A DNA stretch of 64,000 bases from contig JAJFIX010000045.1 in assembly GCA_021774575.1 (NCBI GenBank), positions 62,001 to 126,000 on the forward strand. Direction: 5' to 3'. The notes under the pieces are model-generated. The model did no database searches. It was not told where the DNA came from and was given only the letters and a program-made list of their open reading frames with translations. Source of the stretch: Alphaproteobacteria bacterium. GTDB taxonomy: Bacteria; Pseudomonadota; Alphaproteobacteria; UBA6615. Below, piece by piece: positions 1 to 44,444 of the stretch (its first letter is position 1; each line of letters starts with the position of its first letter). Position numbers and translations under genes: made by a program.

Positions 1-670
1 ACACATTGTGAAACCCAAAATCCGAGGGGGATATACATCTTTCGTCCATAGGCAGTTCGGTATCGGGCAGCAAACCGAGACTCTCAGCCGCATCGAAGGC
101 CGCCGCTTTTACCGCCAACCAGCGCGGTTCCAATAAATCTGTGACGAATGTCTCGGTCTCGGCGCGCGAGGGCGCTTCCGGGTCGAGCGCGGTCAATTGA
201 TCGACGCGCCCCTGAACCGCCTCTATATGTGCGGCCAAGGAGAAATGGGCTTCGGATGCGAGTTCGATGGCGTCAGTATCGCGGGGCGCAGCGTTTATCG
301 ACGCAATGAAATCCAACGCCGCTTGGATCGCGGTTGCGTCGACATCTTTGGCGGTCATTCGGCGACCGTCGATGAAACCGATCAGCGATGCATTTTCCTG
401 CGCGTCGAAAGTGATGGGCTCGGGAATCGCCCGCACACCGTGCCGCCATGCATATTCGAGGAAACGCCATTCGGCGCCGAGCCGGTCCCGCGTGTCCAGC
501 GGATCTTTGTGGTAAATTTTTAGGACGACGAACCGGTCATCCCCTAGATGAACCTTGAAAACTCGATTGTTGCGGCCTCCCACAAGCTGCTCCACAGCGC
601 TAGGTTTCGGCAAGCCCGCCTTGTCGGTGAGCCGCGCGGCTAGATCGGCCGGTGTAGGATTACCGCCCAT
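1..670 (-). CDS. APH/choline-kinase-type small-molecule kinase, 3' end cut by window edge
   Basis: Partial gene: 223 codons are visible from ATG at 670, which lies one base after the TGA of the HAD gene upstream, so translation is probably coupled. The N-terminal part has the kinase-like pattern GGRNNRVFKV...VLKIY, with the ATP-binding lysine in VLK. Near residues 213-222 the segment SPSDFGFHN matches the catalytic-loop position of aminoglycoside phosphotransferase/choline kinase folds (usual form HGDxxxxN). The C-terminal metal-binding Asp lies outside the window. As the last visible gene of a nucleotide-sugar operon it probably phosphorylates a sugar or a small surface-glycan precursor rather than an antibiotic. 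The substrate is unknown. Confidence 0.8.
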   Translation of the reverse strand, partial: MGGNPTPADLAARLTDKAGLPKPSAVEQLVGGRNNRVFKVHLGDDRFVVLKIYHKDPLDTRDRLGAEWRFLEYAWRHGVRAIPEPITFDAQENASLIGFIDGRRMTAKDVDATAIQAALDFIASINAAPRDTDAIELASEAHFSLAAHIEAVQGRVDQLTALDPEAPSRAETETFVTDLLEPRWLAVKAAAFDAAESLGLLPDTELPMDERCISPSDFGFHNV

Positions 671-671
671 T

Positions 672-1319
672 TCAGAAGTCGGGCTCGAGAAACGCGGCGG
701 CGATATCCGCCCAGCTTGCGAAATATTCGAAAACCTTGTCGTTCCATTCTCCACCCGGATAATGGCCATCAGGCGCGAAAAGAATTGGTCGCGTGGTGCT
801 CGGGAAGCCTTCCTTGCCGAGACATTCGGGTAAATCATCAAAAAAGACGGTGCAACCCAGCGCGCCGATGCGAGACAGTTTCTCATCCATGGTTAGCTCG
901 AAAAACACCAGACTATCGGAGAGCTGGTCCGGTCCGGATCCCATAATGCCTTGATCAAACAGAAAATCGCGCGCAGCCCGGTGCAGGTCGTATTCGGGGC
1001 CCATGAACGGTGTACGGGTCTTGTGGCTGACGACGAAGACCTCATGGTTGGCACCAACGGCGCGAGCGACAAAGTCTTTTACGCCGGGATAGCATGAAAC
1101 AAGGTCCATGCCGGCGCCATAGATATAGCCTTGCAGCTTGGTCCAGTCGTCCTCGCGGCCAGTTTGGCGGAGAAAATCGCGCACGCTGGTCTTGTCGGTA
1201 CCAATATTCTCGGGAATCAGGCCGCGCTCGCGTGCTGCGGCGTGAAAAACGCCGTCGTAACAAGCAATCGTGTTGTCAAAATCTATGCCGATCCGCATTT
1301 GTTGCTGCATCGCGGTCAA
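672..1319 (-). CDS. HAD-superfamily hydrolase, probable sugar-phosphate phosphatase
   Basis: 215 residues. Motif I is IGIDFDNTIACYDGVF near residue 10 (nucleophile Asp and general acid Asp in DFDNT), motif II is VVSHKT near residue 100, and the acidic motif IV is FFDDLPE near residue 160. A start at the internal Met before RIGIDFDN is also possible. The gene overlaps the dehydrogenase upstream by 4 nt (ATGA) and is followed immediately by the kinase gene, so it belongs to the same operon. In heptose-nucleotide pathways a HAD phosphatase (GmhB) removes one phosphate from heptose bisphosphate. This protein is not clearly GmhB by sequence, so the same role here is inference. Confidence 0.82.
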   Translation of the reverse strand: MTAMQQQMRIGIDFDNTIACYDGVFHAAARERGLIPENIGTDKTSVRDFLRQTGREDDWTKLQGYIYGAGMDLVSCYPGVKDFVARAVGANHEVFVVSHKTRTPFMGPEYDLHRAARDFLFDQGIMGSGPDQLSDSLVFFELTMDEKLSRIGALGCTVFFDDLPECLGKEGFPSTTRPILFAPDGHYPGGEWNDKVFEYFASWADIAAAFLEPDF

Positions 1320-2356
1320 AAAATACTCATATCGATCAATGGACGGCCGATGCGACCGGCGGCAAGATCGTCGAGCGCCATGTTAATGTCGGTGAGGGCG
1401 TAAGGGTCCGACATGAGGTCGCGCACTGGAAATCGGCCATTTGTAAGCAGACGACCATATTTCTCGTAGTCGCGGTCAGGTACGCTGTCGCCGCCCCATG
1501 TTCCCATAATGCTTTTTCCCTGATTGAACAAAGATGGGTCCAGGGTGAGGGTCGAGCCCAGTTTCGCATTACCAATAACCACGGCACGCCCACCTTGGGC
1601 ACGCGTCGCGTGAACTGCTTGGTCCATGACCGCAGGGATGCCTGTTGCCTCGACTGCGAGATCGACACCGCCGGGCGCGATTTCTGCGATCTGGGCAACT
1701 ACGTTTTCCGCGTTGGGATCGATAGCATGGGTCGCGCCGAATGTCAGCGCAAGAGCACGCCTGTTTTCGCGCACATCGACACCGATTATCGTTGAAGCGC
1801 CTGCAAGTGCTGCGGCCATGCAGGCATTGAGCCCGATGCCGCCGGTGCCGAACACGGCAACATGATCGCCGGGCTTTGCACCCAAGACATTGAATACTGC
1901 GCCCATGCCGGTAGGTGCCGCGCAACCGAGCAGCACGGCGACGTCCATCGGCAGGTCGTCAGGCAATTTGGTAAGTCGGTTTTCGCTTATCACGCTGTGG
2001 CGTTGAAATGTGCATACCCCGCCTGCATTGACCTTGCGGCCGTCCCAATCGTAAACCGCGCCGCCAGCCTCAATGCCGGATCCCTTAAGCCAGGACAGAA
2101 CGACCTGGTCCCCGACAGCGACTTTAGTGACGGCGGCACCGATTTCGATCACCTTGCCAGTACCCTCATGCCCGAGACAGTGGGGAAGCCATTTGTCCTC
2201 ACCCTTGCCGCCCTGGATTTCCAGAAGCTGGGTTCCGCAGGCGCCCGAAAAGGCGATTTCGACCAATACTTGTCCTGGGTTAAGCGCCGGCGTGACGATA
2301 TCGACGATAACCATCGGTTGGCCCGTCTCGACGAGGATTGCCGCTTGTGTTTTCAT
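1316..2356 (-). CDS. Zinc-type medium-chain alcohol dehydrogenase
   Basis: About 346 residues from ATG at 2356 (MKTQAAIL); a TTG eight codons upstream is less likely. Catalytic-zinc ligands are seen as GACGTQ (Cys), GHEGTG (His-Glu) and LGCAAPTGMGA (Cys). The NAD-binding Rossmann motif is FGTGGIGLN. The usual structural-zinc lobe with four cysteines is missing: in its place is a short loop around KVNAGGVCTFQ. The closest style is the class III/FrmA-like group seen in sugar clusters. It lies between the transketolase subunits and the HAD gene, so it probably oxidises or reduces a sugar-derived intermediate. The substrate is unknown. Confidence 0.82.
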   Translation of the reverse strand: MKTQAAILVETGQPMVIVDIVTPALNPGQVLVEIAFSGACGTQLLEIQGGKGEDKWLPHCLGHEGTGKVIEIGAAVTKVAVGDQVVLSWLKGSGIEAGGAVYDWDGRKVNAGGVCTFQRHSVISENRLTKLPDDLPMDVAVLLGCAAPTGMGAVFNVLGAKPGDHVAVFGTGGIGLNACMAAALAGASTIIGVDVRENRRALALTFGATHAIDPNAENVVAQIAEIAPGGVDLAVEATGIPAVMDQAVHATRAQGGRAVVIGNAKLGSTLTLDPSLFNQGKSIMGTWGGDSVPDRDYEKYGRLLTNGRFPVRDLMSDPYALTDINMALDDLAAGRIGRPLIDMSIF

Positions 2357-2392
2357 GATTTTGATATGCCTACTATGCAATCGCGTTTGCGT

Positions 2393-3316
2393 TCAGGTCA
2401 GTTCCTGTTGGATGCGTGCAGCGACTTGCCATCCGGTTAAGCCGAGATGTTCGCGCGCGAACTGCTGTTCTCCGGATATTTTGTAGAACGCATCCGGGGT
2501 GCCGATCCGCATTAGTTTTTTGGTTTCCTTGCGATTATCCACTGCCCATTCGGCAACCGCGGAGCCAAGTCCGCCGATCAAGGAATGTTCCTCCAGCGTG
2601 ACGACGAGCCTAAAGCGTTCGAATGCGGTTTCGAGATATGCCCCATCGACCGGCTTGACGGTATGGAAGCTCACGACATTGGTTGAGATGCCCTGCGCCT
2701 CGAGTGCGATGCGCGCTTTAATAGCCTCGGGCAGCATATTGCCTGTTGAGAGAATGGCGACTTCGGACCCTTCCTCTATCTGCAGTGCGCGGCCAATTTT
2801 AAATTCTTCGGGCACCTTGTCATGGATGACTGGCTCACCTTTTTTCCCCATCCTGATGTAGACGGGGCCGTCTTGTTTCAACGCGGCACGTAACGCGGCC
2901 CGCACCTCAAATGCGTCGCCGGGGCATATGACCTTCATGTTCGGAATGGAACGCAAAAAGGAAATATCTTCGCAAGCGTGATGGGTGGGTCCAAGCCCCG
3001 CGTAGGAAAGCCCCGCGCCAACGGAAACAATCGTCACCGGTAGTTCGTGATAACAGACATCGGTCCTTATCTGCTCAAGGCAGCGAGTGGTCACGAACGG
3101 AGTGATCGTATAAGAGATGGGACGGAGTCCAGACATCGCCATGCCCGCCGCCACGCCAGTCATATTCTGCTCGGCAACGCCACAATTTAGAAAACGGGCC
3201 GGATTGGCAGCCTTAAATTTGTCAAAAAGCCGGTTGCCAATGTCGCCGGAAAGCAGAACCACGCGTGGGTCTTCACTACCGATTTTGGTTAATTCGTCGG
3301 CAAATGCATTTCTCAT
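2393..3316 (-). CDS. Transketolase, C-terminal subunit (pyrimidine-binding and C domains)
   Basis: 307 residues, the size of the C-terminal half of a split transketolase. The start MRNAFADELTKIG and the segment LNCGVAEQNMTGVAAGMA contain the conserved Glu that activates the thiamine diphosphate pyrimidine ring. GPTHHACEDISFLRSIP follows, then a transketolase C domain from about residue 180. It overlaps the N-subunit gene by 4 nt (ATGA), so both subunits should be made together. Transketolase moves a two-carbon ketol group between sugar phosphates. A dedicated copy inside a nucleotide-sugar operon suggests a specialised sugar-building step rather than the central pentose pathway. Confidence 0.92.
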   Translation of the reverse strand: MRNAFADELTKIGSEDPRVVLLSGDIGNRLFDKFKAANPARFLNCGVAEQNMTGVAAGMAMSGLRPISYTITPFVTTRCLEQIRTDVCYHELPVTIVSVGAGLSYAGLGPTHHACEDISFLRSIPNMKVICPGDAFEVRAALRAALKQDGPVYIRMGKKGEPVIHDKVPEEFKIGRALQIEEGSEVAILSTGNMLPEAIKARIALEAQGISTNVVSFHTVKPVDGAYLETAFERFRLVVTLEEHSLIGGLGSAVAEWAVDNRKETKKLMRIGTPDAFYKISGEQQFAREHLGLTGWQVAARIQQELT

Positions 3317-4152
3317 TTGAGGCCTAGCTCCTCGTGTGCGGCACTAACTTCTTCAGCAGTCGGCGCACGATAATGCCAGTTATTGTCATCCTCCATGAAG
3401 GATACGCCTTTGCCCTTTACCGTATTGGCGATGATTGCAACAGGCTTTCCAGATCCGTTCGGCACTGCGGACATTAACTCAACCAAGGCGCCGATATCGT
3501 GGCCGTCGATTTCGTGGGCGTCCCATCCGGCTGCGGCCCATTTATCCTTCAGGGGAGACAGCATCAGAGTGTCATTCGAGCGCGCCGTCGCTTGCCATTT
3601 GTTATAATCGATTACGACGCAAATTTTCTCCAGGCTGTTGCCAGCGGCAAACATTGCCGCTTCCCAGACCGACCCTTCGTTGCACTCGCCGTCCGACAAG
3701 AGTGCAAATACCCGAAAATCCTCGCCCTTAATACGTCCCGCCATCGCCATACCGCAGCCAATTGGTAGTCCATGTCCCAACGAGCCGGTCGCGGCCTCAA
3801 CACCGGCCAATATGTTAGCTGGCGGATGTTCGGCCAGCTCACCGCCGTCCATGCAAAAACTTTCCAGCTTCTCAAGCGGGAAAAAACCCTTCATCGCCAG
3901 CGTTGCATACAGCGCCGCCGCCGCATGGCCTTTGGATAGAATAAACCGGTCCCGCAAAGGATCGGCAGAGTTTGCCGGATCGATATTCAGCACATGCCAA
4001 TAGGCGGCGGTGAGAATATCGCAGCACGACAAGGAGGATGCCAAATGTGCGGCCTTTGCCGCATGGGACATTTCAATGACCTTACCGCGCAATCGCGCCG
4101 CTTGGCTTTTCAAGTCGGCTATATTCGGTGCCGCCGTTTTATTCGCACTCAC
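3313..4152 (-). CDS. Transketolase, N-terminal subunit (ThDP diphosphate-binding)
   Basis: 279 residues, typical of the split N-terminal subunit. The ThDP/Mg motif is GDGECNEG-like: LLSDGECNEGSVWEAAMFA near residue 150, with Asn following in YNKWQATA. RFILSKGHAAAALYATLA near residue 70 and GSLGHGLPIGCGMA near residue 122 are classic transketolase signatures. It begins 12 bases after the stop of... the upstream SDR gene lies downstream at 4164, so the order of translation is N subunit then C subunit. The pair should form the active ThDP enzyme in the cytoplasm. The small gap to the SDR gene upstream (4153-4163) supports one operon. Confidence 0.93.
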   Translation of the reverse strand: MSANKTAAPNIADLKSQAARLRGKVIEMSHAAKAAHLASSLSCCDILTAAYWHVLNIDPANSADPLRDRFILSKGHAAAALYATLAMKGFFPLEKLESFCMDGGELAEHPPANILAGVEAATGSLGHGLPIGCGMAMAGRIKGEDFRVFALLSDGECNEGSVWEAAMFAAGNSLEKICVVIDYNKWQATARSNDTLMLSPLKDKWAAAGWDAHEIDGHDIGALVELMSAVPNGSGKPVAIIANTVKGKGVSFMEDDNNWHYRAPTAEEVSAAHEELGLK

Positions 4153-4163
4153 AACTTACTCCA

Positions 4164-5162
4164 CTAGACTTTATGGACGTATTTCGATGGTAATTCGGCC
4201 AAATTGTTGCCAAATCGTTCTGCCCATCGAATAACATCGTCAATTCCTTGGTCGAGGGAAATTGTATCGCGCCAACCTAGTTCTTCGCGGATTTTAGAAC
4301 TTTTCAGTAGGTAGGTCATATCCTTACCAGGCCTGTCGGGACCGATTTCGACACATTCGTCGAAGGATTTGCCAAGACAATCGAGAATTTTCTCGACAAG
4401 GGTCCGGATCGAGACGATTTCGTTGCCGGAAATATGATAGGTCTCGCCGATCGTCCCCCGTAGTGCGATTTTAAGGGTCGCGTCGCAGACGTCTCGCATA
4501 TGAATGAAGACCCGTTCGGATTTACCGCCACCATCCAAGCGTAGCTTTTCGCCGCCAAGGGCGGCCACGATGGTTCGGGGTAGAATGCGGTAGAGAGGTT
4601 GGCCCGGCCCATAAACATTGGCAGCGCGGGTTGACAGGGCCGGAAAGTCATACGTCTCAACATAGGTGCGCAGGCTCATATCGCCAGCGGCGCGCGAGAC
4701 GGCGTAAGGGGTCGAAGGGTTGAATGAGTGATTTTCATCTACCCATCCGTCGGTGGAACCGTAGACTTCCGGCGTCGTCACATGAATATAGCGCTCAAGC
4801 CCGTCATAGTTTCTCAGCAAATCGTGCAGCCGGACCGTCGAGACGACGTTGGTCATCATCCAGTGATCCGGATTGTCCCAGCTTTCGCCGACCATGCTCT
4901 GGGCGGCGAAATTGACCACATGGGTTGGGCGTTCGCGCTTCAACAAAGCGCCAAGTGCAGCCAAATCGTGGTTTATATCAATACGTTCGAACACGGCCTT
5001 CCCGGTCCGGGTTTCCCATTTGTAGGGTAACAATGCGTCATGGGGCTCGGGCGAACGGCTGGTGGCCAGGACGTCCCATCCACCCTCGGCGAGAAAATCG
5101 ACAAAAGTCGCGCCCGAAAAGGAGTTTGACCCGAGAATAAGAAACTTTTCTTGCTTGGCCAT
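4164..5162 (-). CDS. NAD-dependent epimerase/dehydratase (extended SDR, GDP-mannose 4,6-dehydratase-like)
   Basis: About 332 residues from ATG at 5162 (MAKQEKFLILGS); the in-frame codons further upstream would overlap the SIS gene. The Rossmann motif near the start is ILGSNSFSGATFVDFL, an unusual form of GxxGxxG. The active-site set is TPEVYGS (Thr/Ser and Glu-like acid region), then YAVSRAAG with the Tyr of the YxxxK position but Arg where Lys is usual, which may mark a divergent or altered active site. The C-terminal substrate region contains RVFIHMRDVCDA. It probably remodels an NDP-sugar (dehydration or epimerisation). The exact reaction cannot be read from the sequence. Confidence 0.85.
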   Translation of the reverse strand: MAKQEKFLILGSNSFSGATFVDFLAEGGWDVLATSRSPEPHDALLPYKWETRTGKAVFERIDINHDLAALGALLKRERPTHVVNFAAQSMVGESWDNPDHWMMTNVVSTVRLHDLLRNYDGLERYIHVTTPEVYGSTDGWVDENHSFNPSTPYAVSRAAGDMSLRTYVETYDFPALSTRAANVYGPGQPLYRILPRTIVAALGGEKLRLDGGGKSERVFIHMRDVCDATLKIALRGTIGETYHISGNEIVSIRTLVEKILDCLGKSFDECVEIGPDRPGKDMTYLLKSSKIREELGWRDTISLDQGIDDVIRWAERFGNNLAELPSKYVHKV

Positions 5163-5172
5163 AGGGGGCGAC

Positions 5173-5778
5173 CTAGCTCCTTGCCGCGGCGACGTCGCCG
5201 GCCTGCCCGCCAAGCCATTGCATGATCATGTGACCGACAATGAGTTGGGCATCTTCGGCAATCTGCATATCATCGATCGCAAAATGAATTGGTACGTCCG
5301 CGATTTTCTTCGCCAGACCTCCCGAATACCCCAGCACCGCATAGCTGATCATGCCGATTTTCTTAGCCTCCTCGAGCGCTTTGAGAATATTTGGTGAATT
5401 ACCGCTGCCGGAGAATACGATCAACACGTCGTTTGCACTTGCCTGCACAGCGAGCTGCAACGAAAAGATTTTCTCATAACCTTCATCGTTGGCCAAGCAG
5501 GTCATGACGGACTGGTTCGCTCCAAGGCTGCTGATTCTGAGTCCCGAGCCGGGCTGCTTTGACACCCCATAGAGAAAGTCGTTTGCAAGATGGTTCGCGT
5601 TGCCAGCACTGCCGCCATTTCCCGCCAAGAACACCCGCCGTCCAGAAACCCAGCATTCTTTCAGTTCTTCAGCCAGTTGTTCAACCGGTGCCCAGTCAAA
5701 ATTAGCAAGCAATTCCGACAGCCGCTTCGAGTAGTCGCGGAAATGGGCGCCCATGGCCATATTGGCAGCCGCAGTCAC
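5173..5778 (-). CDS. SIS-domain sugar isomerase, GmhA (phosphoheptose isomerase)-like
   Basis: 201 residues, the size of GmhA (about 190-200). The SIS phosphosugar-binding loop is FLAGNGGSAGNANHLANDF near residue 55, and SGSGNSPNILKALEEAK near residue 122 is the second GmhA signature. GmhA converts sedoheptulose 7-phosphate to D-glycero-D-manno-heptose 7-phosphate. Its presence with an HldE-like kinase/nucleotidyltransferase and a RmlA/HddC-like nucleotidyltransferase points to a heptose-type route. It overlaps the SDR gene upstream by 4 nt (ATGA). The start MTAAANMAMGAH could also be either of the next in-frame Met codons. Confidence 0.88.
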   Translation of the reverse strand: MTAAANMAMGAHFRDYSKRLSELLANFDWAPVEQLAEELKECWVSGRRVFLAGNGGSAGNANHLANDFLYGVSKQPGSGLRISSLGANQSVMTCLANDEGYEKIFSLQLAVQASANDVLIVFSGSGNSPNILKALEEAKKIGMISYAVLGYSGGLAKKIADVPIHFAIDDMQIAEDAQLIVGHMIMQWLGGQAGDVAAARS

Positions 5779-6716
5779 GCCATCACCTGCTGCTGCATCC
5801 AGCGCAGATTATGCCATTGATCGCGATCTTCCAGTACACCTTGCCGAGAAAGTCCAATAATTTCCTTGATAGCATCGTCGACGGATTTAGAGGGCTTGAA
5901 CCCAGTCGCCAACAACTTGTCCGAATTGACGTGATAGGAACGGGGATCGTCAGACGGTGTGACTTCGATTACAGCGTCAGTATAACTGGCAACTTTCTCG
6001 GCAATTTCCAAAATTGACAAATTTTCGAAGCCCGCGTTGTAGACGCCTTGATGTTCGGGGTGATCGAGCAGGAAACAATAGAGATCCGTAATATCGTCAA
6101 TATGAATGTTGGGTCGCGTTTGTGCACCGCCGAACACCGTGATTTTCCCGTTCTTGATCGCCTGCATCGTAAGCATGTTAACCGAAACGTCGAGGCGCAT
6201 CCGCGGAGAGAAGCCGCAGACCGTCGCCGGACGGACGATCTGCACGACCATATCGTCGCTGTATGAAAGCAAAATACGCTCACTGCACATTTTCGTCTTG
6301 TTATATTCGGAAATCGGCAATAGCTCGAGGTCCTCGGTGACCTCGGGATCGTCCTTGACACCATAGACGCTGCCTGAGGAGGCATAGATGAAACGGTCAA
6401 TACCTTGACGTTTGGCGCGATCAGCGAGTTGCATCGTCGCTAGGCAGCTGATTTCCCAAGTGAGCTTCGGATTTAAGTCGCCACACGGATCGTTAGCTAC
6501 ACTAGAGAGATGAATGATAGCGTCGATCCCATCGAGATCGACCTCATCGATATTGCGCACATCCCCCTGAATAACTTCCAGGTCGGTATGGGGTGTTAAA
6601 TGATTGCCAAACCACATGCTGTCGAACGCCCTGACCTTGTGGCCCGCCAGTAGCAATTTGGGCACCAGAACGCTCCCTTTATATCCGCAAGCTCCGGTTA
6701 CTAAAATATGTGCCAT
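5775..6716 (-). CDS. NAD-dependent epimerase/dehydratase (extended SDR)
   Basis: About 313 residues from ATG at 6716; a GTG codon just before it is the alternative. The motif AHILVTGACGYKGSVLVPKL is the NAD-binding glycine loop. The conserved acid is in GDVRNIDE, the Ser is in YASSGSVYG near residue 116, and the YxxxK pair is YNKTK near residue 140. This is a complete SDR active site, unlike the neighbour at 4164-5162. It probably acts on an NDP-activated sugar made by the nucleotidyltransferase upstream. A 78-bp gap separates it from that gene, while the SIS gene downstream overlaps by 4 nt. Confidence 0.87.
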   Translation of the reverse strand: MAHILVTGACGYKGSVLVPKLLLAGHKVRAFDSMWFGNHLTPHTDLEVIQGDVRNIDEVDLDGIDAIIHLSSVANDPCGDLNPKLTWEISCLATMQLADRAKRQGIDRFIYASSGSVYGVKDDPEVTEDLELLPISEYNKTKMCSERILLSYSDDMVVQIVRPATVCGFSPRMRLDVSVNMLTMQAIKNGKITVFGGAQTRPNIHIDDITDLYCFLLDHPEHQGVYNAGFENLSILEIAEKVASYTDAVIEVTPSDDPRSYHVNSDKLLATGFKPSKSVDDAIKEIIGLSRQGVLEDRDQWHNLRWMQQQVMA

Positions 6717-6797
6717 CACACTCTCAATCTTGTTTTCGACTGTATAGCGGTATTTCCCACCCCGATCACCGAGTGCGGTCTACCGCAAAATGCCTTG

Positions 6798-7540: not shown

Positions 7541-9022
7541 TCAATCCGAATGATCGATTTCAGCAAGTAACCCGTCCAGGCTCAGGGGTGTATTTCCGAC
7601 TTGCCCAACCTGGCACGAGGCCGCCAATGAACCGAAATAGGCGCTTTCCCATATATCAGCCCCGGCCCGATGCGCCAGGGCGGTCCCGGCAAACAAGCTG
7701 TCACCAGCACCAGCAACGTCCTTAGGCGCGGAGTTAAAGGCCGGCAATCTATCGGTGGTCATTTCATCCCCCATGGGACCAAGAATCAATGTGCCCTCAG
7801 CACCCAGTGTGAGTATCACCGATTTGCATGTAGCTTTTTCGACCAATTTTTCGGCGAGTATGGCTAGGCCGGATTCCGCGTCCTTCAGCGCCAGCCGCGC
7901 CTCGCGCTCCGTGGGCGTAATGAAGGTCATGTCCCTAAATCGCGAGATATCGGAAAGTTGGGACGAGGCTTGACTGTCGGCTGCCATCATAACGTCGCGG
8001 GATTTGGCAAGATCAATGATTGCATCGACCAGCGTTTGCGGCAAACAACCATAGTTGAAATCTGAGAAAAGCAAGACATCGGCGTCAGCCATGAAGTCGT
8101 CGCACGCATTCAACATCTTATTAGCCAGGTCAGCGTTGACCCCGTGCTGCCGCAAATGATTGACCCTTAGCAATGTTTGGCCTTGCGCCCGGTAGCGTTG
8201 TTTGATTGTCGTCGGACGCGTGTCGTCCAGAAAGCCATGATATTCTACACCCAACTCCTCGAAATATTGTTCCGAATATTCTCCCGCTTCGTCCCTGCCC
8301 CTGACCGTAACGAATTTGACTTCGGCGCCAAGTCCATGGGCGTGGGCAGCCACAATTCCGGCCCCGCCAATAAATCGATGGGTCTCGATCGGCGTGACGA
8401 CCACGGCTGGAACCTCTTGCGACATGCCGAGGGGCTCACAAGAAATATACTCGTCGACAATTAGGTCTCCAACAACAACAACTTTTATTCCCGCGAGCCG
8501 GTCAATGCGCCGCTTCAGGCTGTCGATGGTAAAACCATGTCGGCGCGGGTAGCCATCGGGCTTATGTGTCTTGGAGACTGAGGCGGGGCCGAATTCGCTT
8601 GATTCCAGCGCGGCCGAGGACAGTCGCATCTCCCCAGAGGAAAAAAACAACTTTCCACCGTAGCTGTCGACGACATCTTGCTCGACGTTCCATCGCTGCT
8701 CAAATTCCTTGCCTTTGACGACAAATTCCGGCTTCAGCTTTGCAATGAATTTTTCGGGCGGCTCGTCCAGCAAGACTGAATATTTGACTGCCGCAAGCGC
8801 CCGGACATTGGCCAATCGCTCCTCTCCAGGTGCTGCCACGCCAATAGCCGCATCACCACTTACACCCACCACCATGAAATCGCTTATCTCGGAGGCAAAT
8901 TCCAATATTCTGAGATGACCGGGATGGATAAAATTAAAATTTCCGGAAACAAAGCAAATACGAGCCCCCAGCCCGGCGGCAATCGTAATGCTCTCTATTT
9001 GTTCACTCGCACTTGGGGCCAT
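7541..9022 (-). CDS. Bifunctional HldE-like protein with reversed order: nucleotidyltransferase then PfkB sugar kinase
   Basis: About 493 residues from ATG at 9022 (MAPSASEQ). Residues 15-140 form a cytidylyltransferase-like domain: CFVSGNFNFIHPGHLRILEF contains the HxGH catalytic motif, followed by ERLANVRALAAVKY. Residues 165-490 form a PfkB/ribokinase-type kinase: VVVVGDLIVDEYI, FIGGAGIVAAHAHGLGA, and the catalytic DVAGAGDSLFAG (base Asp). In E. coli HldE the kinase comes first and the adenylyltransferase second, so the order here is swapped. Known HldE phosphorylates heptose 7-phosphate at C1 and adds AMP. The substrate here is inferred from the GmhA-like neighbour. It overlaps the next gene by a few bases. 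Confidence 0.88.
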   Translation of the reverse strand: MAPSASEQIESITIAAGLGARICFVSGNFNFIHPGHLRILEFASEISDFMVVGVSGDAAIGVAAPGEERLANVRALAAVKYSVLLDEPPEKFIAKLKPEFVVKGKEFEQRWNVEQDVVDSYGGKLFFSSGEMRLSSAALESSEFGPASVSKTHKPDGYPRRHGFTIDSLKRRIDRLAGIKVVVVGDLIVDEYISCEPLGMSQEVPAVVVTPIETHRFIGGAGIVAAHAHGLGAEVKFVTVRGRDEAGEYSEQYFEELGVEYHGFLDDTRPTTIKQRYRAQGQTLLRVNHLRQHGVNADLANKMLNACDDFMADADVLLFSDFNYGCLPQTLVDAIIDLAKSRDVMMAADSQASSQLSDISRFRDMTFITPTEREARLALKDAESGLAILAEKLVEKATCKSVILTLGAEGTLILGPMGDEMTTDRLPAFNSAPKDVAGAGDSLFAGTALAHRAGADIWESAYFGSLAASCQVGQVGNTPLSLDGLLAEIDHSD

Positions 9023-9102
9023 TTTTATATTGTTCTTAGAGTAATAATATTGCGCATACACACGTCATCGACCCTCGGCGGAGCATCACAGCTGGCGACG
9101 GA

Positions 9103-15404: not shown

Positions 15405-17033
15405 TCAAAAATTATACCGCACCATTAGCCCGGCAAAATAAGCGCCGTCGGCACCGGCAAATTGGCCGGGAGAGGTTTCTAGACGGAAGGCATCACCGGG
15501 AAAAAAATACCCGAAAGTGAAATCGACATCGAAATTTGGGGTTATGTCCCGCATGCCGACGATCAAATCAATCTCTTGCCCCAGCGAACGGCTACGCATC
15601 GATGGGTCACTATTGGGGTCTAGATCGATCGGAGACCCCACCAAGCGGTCTGATAATTTATCTTGGCGGTAGTAGTGATAGACGATGTCAACCGAGCTAT
15701 TATCCGTTGGCCGAAACCCGGTCCCAACAGTGTAGATATGTATATTACGGAGATCAGGGTCGAATACTTCACCGTAATATTTAAATCGTGTGACACCGCC
15801 AAACGTGTACTCATTGTCTTCCAAGCCGGTTTGGCGAAACTCAGTGTCCCTATCGTCGGATCGGTCACTGTCGCCACTGCCATGGGCAGCGGCGATTGTC
15901 ACATGTGGATCGAGGCGATGATCGGCGGTAAATGTCGCGCCCGCGTCGAAGCCGTATCCATCGACTCTTTTCAGCCTGCTACGGCCCTGCCTAGTCGCAA
16001 TATCGACCCAGTAATTCAGCTTGTTTTCGCCAAGATCAAGACGCCCCCTGGCCCGCAAACCCAACCACCCGACCCGCCCCTTACGCCCCGACCTGTCATC
16101 CCGAAATAGGGCAAAGGCTGCAAGTCGCAGACTGCGGGCAAGATCATATTCTCCAGACAAAATATAAGTGTTAATTCGGTTAACCTCGTCATTTTCGAGT
16201 AAATCTGGATCGGCGAATTCTTCCCGGCCCGCAACCGCTTCTACGCTGACGGGCCCCTTCTCAAATTCAAGACGAACGGCGTCCAGCTCATCATCTATGT
16301 ACCATTCCCTTCTATCTCTAATTTTTTGCCGACCCAGGGTAAGGGTAGTTCCGTCAATAAGTTCACTAATTTGGATATAGGCCCGACGCAATTTCAATTG
16401 GTTGGCGCTGTCGTTACGGTCCGCGTCATCATCGATATCGAATTCCCGGCTGAGCTCAAGGCTCAGATATCCGAGAACATACCTATTTGGCATGTAGGAA
16501 ATTGCCAGCGATACAGCCGGGTCAATTGTCGTGACGCCGTCATCCGTTCTGCTATCGAGATCGAAATTCCCCTCTGACTGAAAATCCAACTTGGTCCGCC
16601 CACCAGCGTAAAAGCCAAAACCCAAATCGTTGGGTGTCGATGGCGGTATATCGAGGTCGAGTTCGTCCTTATCGTTGGCCGAAATGACCGGTTCGGGTCT
16701 TTGGTCGGATTGAGCCGAATCATCGCCATCCGGTATGGGCACCAAACCGGTGAGTAGATCGACATCTTCGACTTCGACATCAACGTCCGGTATAATCGGG
16801 AGCACCGGCCCCAATTGATCCGGCGTAGTGGTGTCATTAATCATATCGGACTCAACGGACGAGGATGATTCTGTTCCAGAACTTTCCTCGGTAAAATGCC
16901 CAGGAGCCGAATCTTCCAGCGTTGACGTTTCCGCACTCTCTGCCGCCACACGGCCAATTCCCAAGGCGCCAAGCAAGCAAATAGCGGCAGCAACCGTCGC
17001 ATACCATCTGGCCTGGGGAAAATATCTCGACAT
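15405..17033 (-). CDS. AlgE-like outer-membrane beta-barrel porin (alginate_exp family)
   Basis: About 542 residues from ATG at 17033. A signal peptide is seen at residues 1-30 (YATVAAAICLLGALGIGRVAAE). Residues 30-130 are acidic and low-complexity. The barrel region starts near 140 with YAGGRTKLDFQSEGNFDLD and includes repeated amphipathic strands, TLGRQKIRDRREWYIDDELD, which matches AlgE-family strands, and it ends with the aromatic C-terminus LMVRYNF, the usual outer-membrane insertion signal. AlgE exports alginate in Pseudomonas, but many family members are general porins. It lies 119 bp downstream of the hydrolase gene on the same strand, so co-transcription with that operon is possible. 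Confidence 0.85.
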   Translation of the reverse strand: MSRYFPQARWYATVAAAICLLGALGIGRVAAESAETSTLEDSAPGHFTEESSGTESSSSVESDMINDTTTPDQLGPVLPIIPDVDVEVEDVDLLTGLVPIPDGDDSAQSDQRPEPVISANDKDELDLDIPPSTPNDLGFGFYAGGRTKLDFQSEGNFDLDSRTDDGVTTIDPAVSLAISYMPNRYVLGYLSLELSREFDIDDDADRNDSANQLKLRRAYIQISELIDGTTLTLGRQKIRDRREWYIDDELDAVRLEFEKGPVSVEAVAGREEFADPDLLENDEVNRINTYILSGEYDLARSLRLAAFALFRDDRSGRKGRVGWLGLRARGRLDLGENKLNYWVDIATRQGRSRLKRVDGYGFDAGATFTADHRLDPHVTIAAAHGSGDSDRSDDRDTEFRQTGLEDNEYTFGGVTRFKYYGEVFDPDLRNIHIYTVGTGFRPTDNSSVDIVYHYYRQDKLSDRLVGSPIDLDPNSDPSMRSRSLGQEIDLIVGMRDITPNFDVDFTFGYFFPGDAFRLETSPGQFAGADGAYFAGLMVRYNF

Positions 17034-17152
17034 CAAATTTAGTCCCGTATGATTGAGTTCGACGTCACCCCAGAATGTTGGAGGTGCATTCCGGCGCCGA
17101 CCGCAAAATCGATTTAAGGTGTTTGCGGCGTCGTTTAGGCGCTGTTAAGCGT

Positions 17153-33408: not shown

Positions 33409-36081
33409 TTGCCCACCTTATCACGCCCCGAACCAAAGAGTCTTACCCGCCATCCAATGCAGCGTTGGATGGCGACGGTTCATCGTTTTGCCTTGCCGGT
33501 CGTTTTGGCAGCGGTCGCCCTTTCGGCGATGAGCCTTATATATATTTCTCGGGAGCTCGGAATCAATACCAGCACCACCGACATGATCGCTTCGGAGGTG
33601 CCGTTCCGGCAGGCCAGCGCCGCCTATGACCGGGCTTTTCCACAATTTAACGACAATATAGTCGTCGTCATTGAGGCGCTGTCAGCGCAAGCCGCCACCG
33701 AAACCGTTGAGCGGGCGGCGGATCAACTTGCCACACGACTTGCTGCAATAACCGAGCAGTTTTCTTCTGTCTCTCGCCCCGGTGGCGAAGCATATTTTCA
33801 GGAAAACGGCCTATTATTCATGGATACGGTCGAGCTTTACGATCTATCCGATCGCATCGCCGAGGCCGAACCGTTGCTTGGCGCGCTGGCCAACGACCCG
33901 ACACTCCGTGGACTTTCAGGGATCATTTCGACGGCCCTTGAAACCGACGAGGATATTGCCGGTGTGACCGATAGCACGGCCCTTGAAAGCGCGATCACGC
34001 AAATGGCTGTCGTCGCCGAAACAATGGACCTAAACCAGCCACTGACTTTGTCATGGGCCAATTTGTTGAGCGGCAATGACAGCAACCGATCCCCCGCTCG
34101 GCAATTTGTGCTGATCAGACCGATCCTCGATTTTAGCTCAATGAAACCTGCGTCCGACGCGCTCGAGACAATCCGCGCCCAGGCGGCAGAATTGGCCATC
34201 GACGAAACATCGGGTTTGCGCCTGCGCATCACCGGGTCGGCGGCAATCGAGCAGGAGGAACTCGAAAGCGTCGAGGTGGGCGGTCAGACCGCAGGCTATC
34301 TCTCCCTTACTCTGGTAACAATCCTGCTTTTGGTCGGTTTGAAATCCATCCGCCTCGCCGTGGTTGCTGTTGTGACCCTGATGATCGGCCTCATTTGGAC
34401 CGCCGCGTTGGCCACCGCGACCGTTGGCGAACTCAACTTATTATCCGTCGCTTTCGCCGTTCTATTTATCGGTCTGGGTGTCGATTTCAGCATCCATTTT
34501 GCGCTGCGCTACTTGGAAACCGATATTTCTGCACGCGATAGTGCAAAGGCCCTTGCAGCAACCGGCGAGAGCGTCGGGGGCGCATTAACCTTGAGCGCGG
34601 TGTGCGCTGCGGCCGGGTTTTTCGCCTTTATGCCAACCGACTACATCGGCCTTGCCGAACTCGGCCAAATAGCCGGGATAGGCATGTTTGTCGCCTTGAG
34701 CGCCAATTTGACGGTTCTGCCAGCTTTAATAAAACTAGCAAAGCTGAAAACCGTACTGAAGACACAGTCACATTGGGCCACCAGGTTTTCTCATTTTCTT
34801 CAATTGCGCGCCAAATTAGTCATCGGTGCCGCCGGAATTACCGGCCTTGCCGGCTTGCTCCTCGTTCCGTCGATGATTTTCGATTTCAATCCAATCAATT
34901 TGCGCGACCCGAATTCGGAATCCGTCGCTACCTATATGGATTTGGCGGCGGACCCGGACAGCTCATTTTATTCAATTGATCTGCTCGTGCCTGACACCGG
35001 CTTGATCGGCACGACGACCGCCGCCTTAGACGAGCTGGCGCTCGTCGGTAGCGTGATCTCGATCACAAGCTTCGTGCCCTCCGATCAGGACGAAAAACTC
35101 GCTCTTATCGACGAGTTGGCCTTTGTTCTCGCCGGAATATTGGCGCCACTAGCGGCCAAAGCCGATCCAACACCGGCAGAAAACAGCGCCTTGCTAGCCG
35201 ACTTTCTCGCCACCCTCGCCACCCGCAGCGCCCAAAATGACGCGCTTGGTACAGCCGCCGGACGGCTTGCCCGGGCCATTGCGTCTCTCGGGGACACCAG
35301 CGGCAATCTCAACGACGCGACCATTGCCGAACTTGAGCGGCGTTATGTCACCCACGTTCCTTATATGTTTGACCGGCTGGATGCGACATTGCTTGCCGGG
35401 CCAGTCGATTTGGCGACTTTGCCCGAAGAAATCACCTCCCAATGGATTGCCGCTGATGGCCAGGCACGTTTGCTCATCCAACCAGCAAGCGGCATTACGT
35501 CAAATCGCGATTTACAGATCTTTGCCGATGCGGTGGGCTCAATTGCGCCGGACGCGACCGGAACCCCAGTCATCGTCACCGAAGCGGGCCGCGTGATCTT
35601 GCATGCATTTTTCACGGCATCGGCGATCGCTTTTTTGGCGATCATCCTCATTTTGGCTGTCATGCTGCGTCGCCCCGCCGACATCTTGCTCATTCTCTTG
35701 CCTTTGGCGCTTTCGGCGACGGTAACGATTGCCGTTGCGGTGATATTTGGGCTCACGTTTAATTTTGCCAATATCATCGTCTTGCCGCTGCTCCTCGGAT
35801 TGGGTATCGCCAGCGCCATTCACCTGGTCATACGCTGGCGTCGATCCGGCGGTGATATGGCGGTTGTCGCGGGCTCAACGCCCAGGGCGGTATTTTATAG
35901 TGCAATGACGACCATTGCCGCCTTTGGCAGCCTCACGGTTTCAGGCCATTTGGGCATGCGGTCAATGGGCTTGCTGCTTGCAATCGCGCTGACATCAACA
36001 TTGATATCTACGTTAGTTGTCTTGCCGAGCCTGATGACCCTGATCGGCAGTAGCAAGAGTAGAGAACGGAGCGTCTCCTAA
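33409..36081 (+). CDS. hpnN: HpnN-type RND transporter for hopanoids
   Basis: Up to 890 residues. The first in-frame start is TTG at 33409; ATG at 33457 (MQRWMATVH) is an equal or better choice. The MMPL/RND layout is repeated twice: one helix at the start (VVLAAVALSAMSLIYI), a periplasmic domain, helices around residue 290-430 (GVDFSIHFALRYLE), a second large domain, and closing helices (IIVLPLLLGLGIASAIHLVI). In Rhodopseudomonas HpnN moves hopanoids to the outer membrane. It starts the rightward hpn operon, and its TAA overlaps the ATG of hpnA by one base. Confidence 0.9.
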   Translation: MPTLSRPEPKSLTRHPMQRWMATVHRFALPVVLAAVALSAMSLIYISRELGINTSTTDMIASEVPFRQASAAYDRAFPQFNDNIVVVIEALSAQAATETVERAADQLATRLAAITEQFSSVSRPGGEAYFQENGLLFMDTVELYDLSDRIAEAEPLLGALANDPTLRGLSGIISTALETDEDIAGVTDSTALESAITQMAVVAETMDLNQPLTLSWANLLSGNDSNRSPARQFVLIRPILDFSSMKPASDALETIRAQAAELAIDETSGLRLRITGSAAIEQEELESVEVGGQTAGYLSLTLVTILLLVGLKSIRLAVVAVVTLMIGLIWTAALATATVGELNLLSVAFAVLFIGLGVDFSIHFALRYLETDISARDSAKALAATGESVGGALTLSAVCAAAGFFAFMPTDYIGLAELGQIAGIGMFVALSANLTVLPALIKLAKLKTVLKTQSHWATRFSHFLQLRAKLVIGAAGITGLAGLLLVPSMIFDFNPINLRDPNSESVATYMDLAADPDSSFYSIDLLVPDTGLIGTTTAALDELALVGSVISITSFVPSDQDEKLALIDELAFVLAGILAPLAAKADPTPAENSALLADFLATLATRSAQNDALGTAAGRLARAIASLGDTSGNLNDATIAELERRYVTHVPYMFDRLDATLLAGPVDLATLPEEITSQWIAADGQARLLIQPASGITSNRDLQIFADAVGSIAPDATGTPVIVTEAGRVILHAFFTASAIAFLAIILILAVMLRRPADILLILLPLALSATVTIAVAVIFGLTFNFANIIVLPLLLGLGIASAIHLVIRWRRSGGDMAVVAGSTPRAVFYSAMTTIAAFGSLTVSGHLGMRSMGLLLAIALTSTLISTLVVLPSLMTLIGSSKSRERSVS

Positions 36082-37070
36082 TGAAAATCCTTGTTACCGG
36101 CAGCACCGGCTTTGTCGGCGCCGCCGTGGCGCGCCAACTGGCCGCCAAAGGTCATGACCTCAAACTGCTCGTTCGGCCGGAAAGCGATCGCGGCAATATT
36201 GCGTCCCTGGACGCACAAATCGCCATCGGAGACCTGCGTGACACGAACTCGCTTGCCGCCGCCGTTAAGGGCTGCAACGCGCTCTACCATGTCGCGGCCG
36301 ATTACAGGCTTTGGGTCCGCCGCACCAAAGATCTCTACGAGACCAATGTAGGGGGCACCAAGGCGCTCATCCTGGCAGCTGCGGATGCCGGGGTTGAGCG
36401 CATCGTCTATACATCCAGCGTCGCCGCCCTTGGCCTTAACGCCGACGGCTCTCCAGCCAACGAAGATACACCGGTACGACCAGCGTCAATTATCGGCCAT
36501 TATAAAAAATCAAAATATGATGCTGAACAAGCCGTGCTCGCCTTGGTCAAGGATCGCGGCTGCCCGGTCGTTATCGTCAACCCATCGACGCCAATTGGGC
36601 CCGGCGATATCAAACCGACACCTACCGGGCGCATGATAGTTCAGGCGGCAACGGGTCGGATGCCCGCCTATGTCGATACCGGGTTAAATGTGGTTCACGT
36701 CGACGATGTGGCGGCTGGTCATTTGAACGCCTATGCCAAAGGCAAAATCGGCGAACGCTACATTCTCGGCGGAGAAGATATGAGCCTTGCCGAAATCCTC
36801 GCCACCGTTGCCCGATTGCTCGACCGCAAGCCGCCGAAAATTAAGCTGCCCCACGGGTTGATAATGCCTATCGCCTATTGTGCGACCGCCGTTGCGCAAA
36901 TTACCGGACGTGAGCCCTTTGTTTCGACTGATGCAATACGGATGGCCCGAAAAAAGATGTTTTTTTCCTCCCTCAAGGCCGAAAAAGAGCTGGGATATAT
37001 CCACCGATCTCCGAGTGTTGCCATCGCCGACGCGTTGCAATGGTTTCGGACTGCCGGGTATATTGGCTGA
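36081..37070 (+). CDS. hpnA: HpnA hopanoid-associated sugar epimerase
   Basis: 329 residues with ATG at 36081 overlapping the hpnN stop (TAATG). It is an extended SDR: ILVTGSTGFVGAAVARQL binds NAD(P), YTSSVAALG gives the Ser, and HYKKSKYDAEQ gives the YxxxK pair near residue 140. RMPAYVDTGLNVVHVDDVA is the family pattern. HpnA is named for its constant place in hopanoid clusters; a sugar-epimerase role in hopanoid head-group formation is assumed from the fold and is not proven here. It precedes ispH by 161 bp. Confidence 0.9.
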   Translation: MKILVTGSTGFVGAAVARQLAAKGHDLKLLVRPESDRGNIASLDAQIAIGDLRDTNSLAAAVKGCNALYHVAADYRLWVRRTKDLYETNVGGTKALILAAADAGVERIVYTSSVAALGLNADGSPANEDTPVRPASIIGHYKKSKYDAEQAVLALVKDRGCPVVIVNPSTPIGPGDIKPTPTGRMIVQAATGRMPAYVDTGLNVVHVDDVAAGHLNAYAKGKIGERYILGGEDMSLAEILATVARLLDRKPPKIKLPHGLIMPIAYCATAVAQITGREPFVSTDAIRMARKKMFFSSLKAEKELGYIHRSPSVAIADALQWFRTAGYIG

Positions 37071-37231
37071 ACATACCGTTCGGGGTAGAAAGACCACCCT
37101 TGACCGGAGATGTTTTCAAGTCCATATCCCCTTTTTCTATTGTTCTGAGTTTCTATTTTTATGGGATGACAGGCGCGAGACCGGTCCGCGCCATGATACA
37201 CCGGTCAAATCGATAAGGTTGAGGTATTCAA

Positions 37232-38224
37232 GTGGTTGCACAGCAAATGAGTGACGACACCAGACGCAAATTGCGGGTCATATTAGCCAGCCCGCGTGGT
37301 TTTTGTGCCGGGGTTGAGCGGGCGATTGAAATCGTCGAACGCTCGCTGGAAAAATACGGCCCCCCCGTCTATGTTCGCCACGAGATTGTCCACAATAAGC
37401 GCGTCGTCGAAACGCTGCGGGCCAAAGGCGCAGTCTTTGTCGAGGAAATCGACGAAGTGCCGGTCGGCGCGGTGACGATATTCAGCGCCCATGGCGTGGC
37501 GAGAAAAGTCGAGGAACATTCGGCCGAACGCGAATTGCACGTCATCGATGCGACCTGCCCGCTGGTTTCCAAGGTCCACAAACAGGGGCAGCGCTATAGC
37601 GAAAAAGGCTATGAGGTGGTGCTGATCGGCCATCACGGCCATCCGGAAGTCGAAGGCACGATGGGCCAAGTGCCTGGCACAGTACATCTGGTTGGCGGCG
37701 TCGAAGAAACTAAAACGCTTAGCCCTGCGGACCCAAAGAAAATCTCATATGTGACCCAAACAACGCTCAGCGTCGACGATACCCGCGACATCATCACGGC
37801 CCTGGAAAATAAATATCCAGACATTGTTGGCCCGGATGTGCGCGACATTTGTTATGCCACCCAAAACCGCCAGACAGCGGTCCGCGAATTAGTGGAGAAA
37901 TCCGACGTGCTGCTTGTCGTCGGCGCCAGCAACAGTTCCAATTCCAATCGTTTGCGCGAAATCGGCGAGGCGGCAGGCGTCCCGAGCTATCTCGTCGCCG
38001 ATGCAACTGCTCTGGATCCAGAATGGCTGGTGAATGCGGAATCTGTTGGAATTACGGCGGGTGCCTCTGCACCCGAGGAATTGGTGAGCGAGCTTGTCGA
38101 GCGTATGGGCTCTATGTTTACCGTCGAAGTACAATCTCTGCCGGGTGTTGAAGAGAGCATGCAGTTTCGCTTACCCCGCGAACTGCTTGATCAATCCGCG
38201 GATGCCGAAGTGGCAGCCGAATAA
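37232..38224 (+). CDS. ispH: 4-hydroxy-3-methylbut-2-enyl diphosphate reductase
   Basis: 330 residues from GTG at 37232, behind AAGGTTGAGG; ATG five codons later is the alternative. The three iron-sulphur cysteines are in [17 protein letters not shown] and ICYATQNRQ. The His and Glu of the active site are in [22 protein letters not shown] and TQTTLSVDD. IspH forms IPP and DMAPP in the last step of the MEP pathway. Its place between hpnA and hpnH links C5 precursor supply with hopanoid formation. It is probably in the same transcript as hpnN-hpnA. Confidence 0.96.
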
Positions 38225-38262
38225 CGTCCCGCCAGCAGATTTTTTTGTGAAAGGATTAACAC

Positions 38263-39417
38263 GTGTCGATACCCCTTAGTCAGGCCATAGCTGTCGGCAG
38301 CTATGTATTCAAACAGCGGATAACCGGCCGCGATCGCTATCCATTGGTCTTGATGTTGGAGCCCCTATTCCGCTGCAACCTTGCCTGTCCGGGCTGCGGA
38401 AAGATCGACTATCCAGATGAAATTCTTAATCGACGCATGTCGGTCGCTGAATGTATTGAAGCGGTTGAAGAATGCGGTGCCCCGGTCGTTTCGATCCCCG
38501 GTGGCGAGCCGTTGCTGCACAAGGAAATGGGCGAAGTTGTCGAGGAATTGGTGAAGCGCAAAAAGTATATATATCTATGTACCAATGCGCTGTTGCTCGA
38601 AAAGAAAATGCATCTTTTCAAACCAACAAAATATTTGACCTTTTCGGTCCATCTCGACGGTTTGGAAAAAGAGCACGATCACGCGGTCGATCAAGACGGC
38701 ACGTTCAAACGCGCTGTCGCGGCAATCCGCAAGGTCAAGGAGGCCGGTTTCCGGGTCAACGTCAACTCGACGATTTTCAATAATGCAGAGCCGGCTCGGG
38801 TGGGCGAATTCATGGATCTTGTTTGCGACGATTTGGGCGTCGAGGGCGTCACAATCTCGCCGGGATATGCCTATGAGCGGGCCGCCGACCAGGATCATTT
38901 TCTGACACGGCAAAAAACCAAACAGCTATTTAGAGATTTGCTCCGCCTGGGCAAGGGTAAAAAATGGCGCTTCAGCCAGTCGACCTTGTTCATGGATTTC
39001 CTCGCCGGTAATCAGACCTATCATTGCTCGCCTTGGTCCAATCCAACGCGCAATGTGTTTGGGTGGCAGCGCCCCTGCTATCTCCTCAACGAAGGCTATA
39101 CCAAGACTTTCGCCGAGTTGATGGAGGAGACAGAATGGGACCAATATGGGGTCGGCAATTACGAAAAATGCGCAAATTGCATGGTCCATTGCGGTTTTGA
39201 AGGTACGGCGGTCGTCGATACGACCAAACATCCCATCAAAGCCCTTATGGTCTGGCTCAAAGGTGTGCGGACCGATGGCGAAATGACCCCGGATATTAGC
39301 CTTGAGAACCAACGTCCGGCGGAAAATGTCTATGACAATCTGATCGCGCTGGAGATGGATGCAACCAAGAAGCCCGCATCGGCAAAGGTGGACGAAGCAG
39401 CGAGAGGCGCCGCCTAG
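38263..39417 (+). CDS. hpnH: HpnH radical SAM adenosylhopane synthase
   Basis: 384 residues from GTG at 38263, with AAAGGA about nine bases upstream. The [4Fe-4S] motif is C38-x3-C42-x2-C45 in CNLACPGC. SIPGGEPLLHKE is the SAM GGE motif. A C-terminal auxiliary Cys cluster is in YEKCANCMVHCGFEG. HpnH joins a 5'-deoxyadenosyl radical to diploptene, making adenosylhopane, the first step to C35 hopanoids. HpnG, which faces it tail to tail, acts next. The stop TAG lies inside a 13-bp tandem repeat shared with the end of hpnG. Confidence 0.95.
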   Translation: MSIPLSQAIAVGSYVFKQRITGRDRYPLVLMLEPLFRCNLACPGCGKIDYPDEILNRRMSVAECIEAVEECGAPVVSIPGGEPLLHKEMGEVVEELVKRKKYIYLCTNALLLEKKMHLFKPTKYLTFSVHLDGLEKEHDHAVDQDGTFKRAVAAIRKVKEAGFRVNVNSTIFNNAEPARVGEFMDLVCDDLGVEGVTISPGYAYERAADQDHFLTRQKTKQLFRDLLRLGKGKKWRFSQSTLFMDFLAGNQTYHCSPWSNPTRNVFGWQRPCYLLNEGYTKTFAELMEETEWDQYGVGNYEKCANCMVHCGFEGTAVVDTTKHPIKALMVWLKGVRTDGEMTPDISLENQRPAENVYDNLIALEMDATKKPASAKVDEAARGAA

Positions 39418-39463
39418 CGACCCGGCCTAGAGACCCGGCCTAGAGACTCTGCCTAGAGACTCT
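39412..39463. repeat. 13-bp tandem repeat, four copies, spanning two convergent stop codons
   Basis: Units gcctagcgacccg, gcctagagacccg, gcctagagactct and gcctagagactct run back to back. The palindromic CTAG in each unit gives TAG on both strands. The first copy supplies the stop of hpnH (39415-39417) and the last copy the stop of hpnG (39455-39453). Confidence 0.9.
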
Positions 39464-42106: not shown

Positions 42107-42282
42107 GTATTCCTTCTACGCCGCCCAAACAACAGGCGGAGGGGGGGATTTGCGCAAAGTGACGAGCCTTCTAAGAGCCCATCTCTATCAGTTTAATATA
42201 GAGAACCAAGTGATTTTTCCACCATCTGTTCACATATTCTCTCTGTGCATATTTTTAACCAAATAGCGAAAATTCACATGGG

Positions 42283-43569: not shown

Positions 43570-43573
43570 GATA

Positions 43574-44443: not shown

Positions 44444-44444
44444 T

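Follow-up and report, generated by a model that had tools for sequence, protein, structure and literature searches.

A protein that joins the two domain superfamilies of HldE in the opposite order raises the question of whether its gene encodes a permuted enzyme of ordinary ADP-heptose synthesis, a local rearrangement, or a member of a separate family that acts on another sugar. The gene, here called REV, lies on the minus strand at 7541..9061 of the window, by which we mean the whole 64,000-nucleotide stretch of alphaproteobacterial DNA that was analysed. The likely start is the ATG at 9022, giving a protein of 493 aa, with a GTG at 9061 as the alternative (506 aa). Pfam places CTP_transf_like at residues 38–127 (E = 6e-10) and PfkB at residues 193–491 (E = 3e-29), NCBIfam places rfaE_dom_II at 32–149 followed by rfaE_dom_I at 187–499, and the two collections thus agree with the preliminary description of this DNA, which had read an HPGH nucleotidyltransferase (NT) ahead of a GAGDS-type PfkB kinase, opposite to the order in HldE. 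The N-terminal NT domain (8603..8950, minus strand) keeps the HPGH motif (~8926-8915, read from the translation, as is the kinase motif), lacks the K...RP loop, and has GNFN in place of GxFD and SSA in place of STT; the C-terminal kinase domain (7589..8485, minus strand) keeps GAGD(S) (~7711-7700), and its closest solved fold is HldA.

Chance, sequencing error or a frame artefact can be set aside as sources of this order, because the reading frame is uninterrupted over 506 codons with no internal stop and 120 other proteins are arranged alike. The NT domain comes first in 40 of 40 full-length relatives and in all 121 reversed proteins scored by domain HMMs (the window's included, and one locus counted twice); since the relatives were picked by a match across both domains, these counts speak for consistency of the order rather than for its frequency. 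While rfaE_dom_I and rfaE_dom_II are the best profile matches, REV fails the curated cut-offs for HldE throughout, scoring 61.9 bits against 181.5 for TIGR02199 (rfaE_dom_II), 194.7 against 345 for TIGR02198 (rfaE_dom_I; a strict cut-off, passed in just two of 14 control genomes) and 160.8 against 521 for NF008454. A normal, kinase-first HldE is also present in the window's own genome, and it is because of these failed cut-offs and this second protein that 'HldE-like', the functional label first given to the gene, is misleading.

The reversed order is widespread. Among 385 genomes of the class, at least 52 have a match spanning both domains, and a profile search of 398 genomes of the phylum recovered the order in at least 50. 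Both counts include the window's own genome and are lower bounds tallied by eye among the matches listed. A scan of named species, with patterns taken from clades 1 and 2 of the family (see below), gave 499 relatives, the best 80 of which share 48–58% identity; these 80 comprise alpha-, beta-, gamma- and other proteobacterial records together with metagenome-assembled genomes (MAGs) labelled Nitrospina, Nitrospira, Omnitrophota, Lentisphaerae, Marinimicrobia, Riflebacteria and others, labels that may be wrong. REV belongs to a large family, most of it unnamed, in which the reversed order is the rule, and the order is neither the product of a local rearrangement nor a peculiarity of one locus. 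Searches of the literature found neither a paper describing a reversed HldE nor a published heptose cluster that has this domain order. A passage of a jumbo-phage paper (PMC7824862) that treats cyanophage PfkB kinases and nucleotidyltransferases of the HIGH superfamily does not contain the fusion. We also considered a phage or plasmid origin and set it aside, as all five phage and 32 plasmid records fall below 60% identity and many are either kinase halves or normal HldE proteins. Two plasmid-borne reversed fusions (clade c3) are annotated merely as 'PfkB family carbohydrate kinase', and automatic labels of this sort (PfkB kinase, HldE, RfaE) obscure the existence of a large family whose role is probably different.

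Separate trees of the kinase domain (73 rows) and the NT domain (72 rows), each with 52 reversed rows, bear on how the fusion arose; the canonical rows are HldE, to which the kinase tree adds three kinase-only rows. A branch separates all 52 reversed rows from the canonical ones (support 100/100 and 100/99 in the two trees), and both trees give the same inner order, ((c2,c3),c1), with 97/84 and 92/83 for c2 plus c3 and with the window's REV in clade c1. Adding one outgroup row to the kinase tree retains the split between reversed and canonical proteins at 97/88, with the rooting made weak by the length of that single row's branch (6.9). The outgroup row is another PfkB kinase from the window's own genome, the one of seven candidate loci to pass the filters. 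A single old fusion, apart from HldE, is the simplest reading of these sequence trees; the root and the c2–c3 join are uncertain because the inner branches are long (c2 1.75, c3 3.25, with a warning from the tree program that the join may be a long-branch effect), the bootstrap of the NT tree is unsettled and the outgroup is poor. The idea of an independent fusion is therefore upheld in so far as both trees fit one separate old event, and falls in so far as it implied an origin peculiar to this locus. Among the individual rows, L045, at first tagged c2, joins clade 1 by a very long branch; this row was retained in both main trees, where c1 and c2 accordingly show two changes, and excluded from the outgroup kinase tree, the residue-conservation groups and the count of c2/c3 neighbours. 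L041 and L160 are the same locus, so that the 85 clade-1 rows used below contain one duplicate, the canonical NT rows L221 and L223 are frames cut by the end of their stretch, from which no stand-alone status is implied, and L216 (a 100-base placeholder) was left out.

REV heads a close run of eleven genes on the same strand. Gene 2, its partner, is an NTP_transferase of the RmlA/HddC/MurU-like type (PF00483; 6798..7544, minus strand, as are all the genes that follow; Pfam and NCBIfam). It is followed by an NAD-dependent epimerase/dehydratase of the SDR type (gene 3, 5775..6719; Pfam), a GmhA-like SIS isomerase (gene 4, 5173..5778; Pfam and NCBIfam) and an SDR resembling dTDP-glucose 4,6-dehydratase (gene 5, 4164..5213), and then by the N-terminal (gene 6, 3313..4152) and C-terminal (gene 7, 2393..3316) subunits of a transketolase and a zinc-type alcohol dehydrogenase (gene 8, 1316..2380), all three assigned by Pfam. 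Gene 9 (672..1319), which has no Pfam or NCBIfam match, was recognized by eye as a HAD-like phosphatase from its DFDNT motif. Gene 10, an APH-fold kinase, is represented in the window by its 5' part (1..886, the longest frame, with a start that is probably over-long) and crosses the window edge to extend to G000:C40 ~61639; gene 11, a SAM methyltransferase, follows it outside the window at G000:C40 ~60947-61789 (L191:8947-9789). Two further genes just outside the window, downstream of the operon (L191:4650-5915 and 1906-3105, G000:C40), carry Methyltransf_14 (PF08484), the C-terminal domain of C-methyltransferases, and are possible makers of C-methyl branched sugars.

The photosynthetic strain Bradyrhizobium sp. 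BTAi1 has counterparts of all eleven genes in the same order, at 48–80% identity (55% for REV). This directs attention to bradyrhizose, a C10 sugar whose synthesis genes Busset et al. (2016; PMC4743980) called unknown and for which they offered an eleven-gene candidate cluster. In their account the cluster shows perfect synteny in six photosynthetic strains, BTAi1 among them, and includes gdh, encoding a dTDP-glucose 4,6-dehydratase, ~40-44 kb from rfaL, which in turn neighbours rfaD, rfaE and rfaF; LPS of a gdh mutant was without bradyrhizose, and the authors themselves note possible polar effects of the gdh mutations, so that no single gene is proven (PMC4743980). In BTAi1 we place the dehydratase at ~5.876 Mb, a Wzy_C ligase-type gene (one of four over the Pfam cut-off) ~36 kb away at 5.913 Mb, and the normal HldE at 5.914 Mb, with ~42 kb between it and REV. 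The BTAi1 operon and the cluster as described are thus placed alike with respect to a ligase-type gene and to HldE. Since gene number, dehydratase, this placement and synteny all agree, the operon in the window appears to be a homologue of the Busset cluster, an identification that draws on these four features rather than on locus tags. By place and annotation gene 5 is the presumed counterpart of gdh. With the BTAi1 cluster taken as theirs, the window shares all eleven genes, the same order and 48–80% identity, and differs in that its genome (3.5 Mb) belongs to another genus group of the same class. In photosynthetic Bradyrhizobium, the LPS is reported to contain bradyrhizose and also, on its lipid A, a hopanoid (PMC4743980). 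As a separate observation, the window contains a run of genes that by eye resemble those of hopanoid biosynthesis (33409-46939; HpnN-, HpnA-, HpnH- and HpnE/HpnC/HpnB-like), 25–40 kb from the operon, with a squalene-hopene cyclase at 40169-42106 within it.

Within Bradyrhizobium the c1 gene occurs in 16 of 265 genomes. Fifteen carriers, BTAi1 included, have all eleven genes in identical order at 42–82% identity, and the sixteenth (G912, locus L271), represented by a partial stretch only, has the first five genes in order; seven of these 16 are also among the 80 named loci, so that the counts overlap. Reaction-centre genes are found in ten of the 16 carriers and in 17 of the other 249 genomes of the genus, a difference that is significant by Fisher's test when phylogeny is ignored (p = 1.2e-7), and with only ten carriers so equipped the operon extends beyond photosynthetic strains. 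Farther afield, homologues of all eleven genes occur in 12 of the 80 named loci, those of Bosea vaviloviae SD260 and Thalassospira alkalitolerans among them, and the arrangement is not constant: Bosea (L089) has the pair of REV and NTP_transferase inverted, and Thalassospira (L146) is one of several loci with the alcohol dehydrogenase and this pair placed elsewhere. The HAD, APH and transketolase N genes are present in 24, 25 and 26, respectively, of 83 clade-1 loci over the stretches examined. Because these genes occur in a minority, and because the order is frequently different outside Bradyrhizobium, the products of clade-1 loci probably vary. Some related loci pair an E1-alpha-type gene (PF00676 in L042) with a transketolase-C-like partner in place of the split transketolase. 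An O-antigen of Rhodopseudomonas palustris is reported to contain a C4-branched sugar (PMC9912281). Three Rhodopseudomonas loci (L141, L149, L153) combine a clade-1 fusion with E1-alpha/beta-like genes and a gene of ~600 aa (F37) that by eye is TPP-enzyme-like.

The two halves of the protein have fared differently. In the kinase domain, for which the best solved fold is that of Burkholderia HldA (model pLDDT 87.9), G-x-G-D is kept with an invariant Asp (100%). The GGAANVAxN stretch that is fixed in HldE and HldA reads GGAGIVAxH in most c1 and c2 rows, and the lysine of DPK is a glutamine (DSQ) in all reversed rows. An earlier hint of a distinct sugar specificity gains from these fixed differences in the kinase pocket and from an operon that points beyond ordinary ADP-heptose; with sugar-pocket residues unlike those of HldE, heptose 7-phosphate as the substrate is itself a guess. 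In the NT domain HxGH is kept at 100% in all groups. At the R and P positions of the K...RP loop, 98% of the 85 clade-1 rows show gaps; K, R and P are 100% kept in 23 c2 and 15 c3 rows, and R and P likewise in 20 canonical rows. GxFD has become GxFN in 85 of 85 clade-1 rows. Mean pairwise identities of the NT and kinase domains are 0.528 and 0.583 in c1, 0.671 and 0.639 in c2, 0.580 and 0.539 in c3, and 0.542 and 0.451 in the canonical proteins, so that c1 is the only one of the four groups in which the NT domain is the less conserved. Moreover, an NTP_transferase (PF00483) adjoins REV in 74 of 80 clade-1 loci and is found in one of 37 c2/c3 loci (L045 excluded), as a copy cut by the contig end some 8 kb off. 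Loop loss, GxFN, lower conservation and the adjacent NTP_transferase together suggest that the fused NT domain of c1 has changed or lost its job and that the neighbouring enzyme took it over, which would make this a natural case of half of a two-domain enzyme seemingly replaced by a neighbouring gene. The near-complete conservation of HxGH and of the KG of VKG (97–100%) in clade 1 calls for caution before the domain is called dead.

From the anatomy of the gene, the separateness of its family, the identity of the operon with that of BTAi1, the motif losses and the co-occurrence of neighbours, all of them observed, we infer with a probability of about 70% that REV is gene 1 of a bradyrhizose-type operon and an anomeric sugar-phosphate kinase whose NT domain is altered or superseded; the substrates and reactions that follow are what these observations would lead us to expect. 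The GmhA-like SIS protein would convert a ketose phosphate (sedoheptulose 7-phosphate or octulose 8-phosphate) to an aldose phosphate, which the PfkB domain of REV would phosphorylate at the anomeric carbon, as HldE and HldA do. The HAD enzyme may then take off the terminal phosphate and the adjacent NTP_transferase form the NDP-sugar, with the N-terminal NT domain probably altered or superseded by it. The 4,6-dehydratase-like enzyme would yield a 4-ketone, onto whose C4 the split transketolase could place a two-carbon branch, and the alcohol dehydrogenase, SDR and methyltransferase may help to finish the sugar and close its inositol-like ring. By our own deduction the six-membered ring of bradyrhizose through O9 needs a C9–C4 bond, and C4 is therefore a hydroxyl-bearing branch point; adding two carbons to a 4-ketosugar would produce just such a centre. 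Reactions of this kind have been proposed for avilamycin and paulomycin, with pyruvate-dehydrogenase-like E1-alpha/beta proteins, and for yersiniose, with YerE; in the passages concerned the precedents use pyruvate-type donors or YerE, and a transketolase is not named for the step (PMC4425429, PMC4753412). A transaldolase, such as the one encoded at L055:6077-6835 in clade c2, was also considered as a supplier of the pathway and set aside, there being none among the eleven genes of the operon. The L055 gene itself is transaldolase-like (TAL_FSA) and lies in a c2 sugar cluster; similar ORFs occur in 18 other loci, and many reversed loci of clade c2 carry such a gene, as if producing their own sedoheptulose 7-phosphate.

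How do other explanations fare? If REV were simply a permuted HldE supplying ADP-D,D-heptose for the LPS core, its best profile matches and the company of GmhA-like SIS and HAD-like genes would be expected; a normal HldE in the same genome, curated cut-offs missed by a wide margin, pocket residues fixed in HldE and exchanged for others fixed in the reversed family, and transketolase, dehydratase, alcohol dehydrogenase and NTP_transferase genes that are superfluous for ADP-heptose synthesis make this very improbable. A proposal closer to our own would keep both domains of REV active and consecutive, the kinase making a sugar 1-phosphate and the NT domain an NDP-sugar with an altered acceptor, with the NTP_transferase activating a second sugar of the same polymer. 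The invariance of HxGH and of R78 (alignment column; 100%) in the 85 clade-1 rows, the conservation of KG there and the side-by-side retention of both genes in BTAi1 are consistent with it. Set against these are the lost K...RP loop, the change of D to N in every clade-1 row and an NT domain less conserved than its kinase, and, further, the bradyrhizose O-antigen, described as a homopolysaccharide (PMC9912281), needs one activated sugar; we regard two active domains as rather unlikely.

The reversed order might also have arisen several times, through independent fusions of HldA-like and HldC-like genes, as the different neighbours of the three reversed clades, their long deep branches and the possibly artefactual c2–c3 join would allow. 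We consider this improbable, given that both domain trees return the same fully supported split from the canonical proteins and the same inner order, and that the split survives in the kinase tree with its one outgroup row. Returning to REV as an anomeric kinase with an altered or superseded NT domain, we would extend it only tentatively, at rather less than even odds, to the family as a whole: the reversed fusions would be the entry enzymes of cross-phylum pathways to branched C8–C10 sugars, including bradyrhizose and perhaps the C4-branched sugar of Rhodopseudomonas, in which an NDP-heptose or NDP-octose would receive a two-carbon unit from a TPP enzyme, with the clade-1 NT domain, its acceptor loop lost, replaced by its partner and now regulatory or structural. 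On that reading, and as a carbon count only, the C10 inositol-fused skeleton of bradyrhizose could be made up of C7 plus C2 (transketolase) plus C1 (methyltransferase), with aldol closure after oxidation at C7.

The operon is intact in another genus, that of the window, and its gene set, often reordered, recurs in additional genera as well as in MAGs attributed to other phyla, a spread which predicts bradyrhizose-like sugars outside Bradyrhizobium. With REV at its head, the apparent bradyrhizose operon offers a defined first set of steps for work in vitro.

REV can be compared with three known enzymes or routes. It shares with HldE both domain superfamilies, the GxGD and HxGH motifs and a GmhA-like SIS gene, here in its own operon, and differs in domain order, sub-cut-off scores, the pocket (GGAGIVAxH for GGAANVAxN, DSQ for DPK), the absent K...RP loop of the NT domain and the presence of a normal HldE in the same genome. 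The GDP-heptose route (GmhA-HddA-GmhB-HddC) likewise combines a SIS isomerase, a kinase, a phosphatase-like gene and a PF00483 nucleotidyltransferase, all of which REV's operon brings together; the HddA kinase is of the GHMP type, whereas that of REV is PfkB, the NTP gene of the operon scores 65 bits against the HddC cut-off of 300, and the NT domain and the transketolase, alcohol dehydrogenase and dehydratase genes are additions to that route. RibF, the FAD synthetase, is built in the same order as REV, with an HxGH nucleotidyltransferase first and a kinase second in one chain, but its kinase domain is unrelated to PfkB and its substrate is riboflavin. A RibF-like ORF, recognized by eye, lies on the plus strand at 60853-61854 of the window. 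Elsewhere in the window, near polysaccharide genes, an outer-membrane porin-like protein with an Alginate_exp domain (PF13372) is encoded on the minus strand at 15405-17036.
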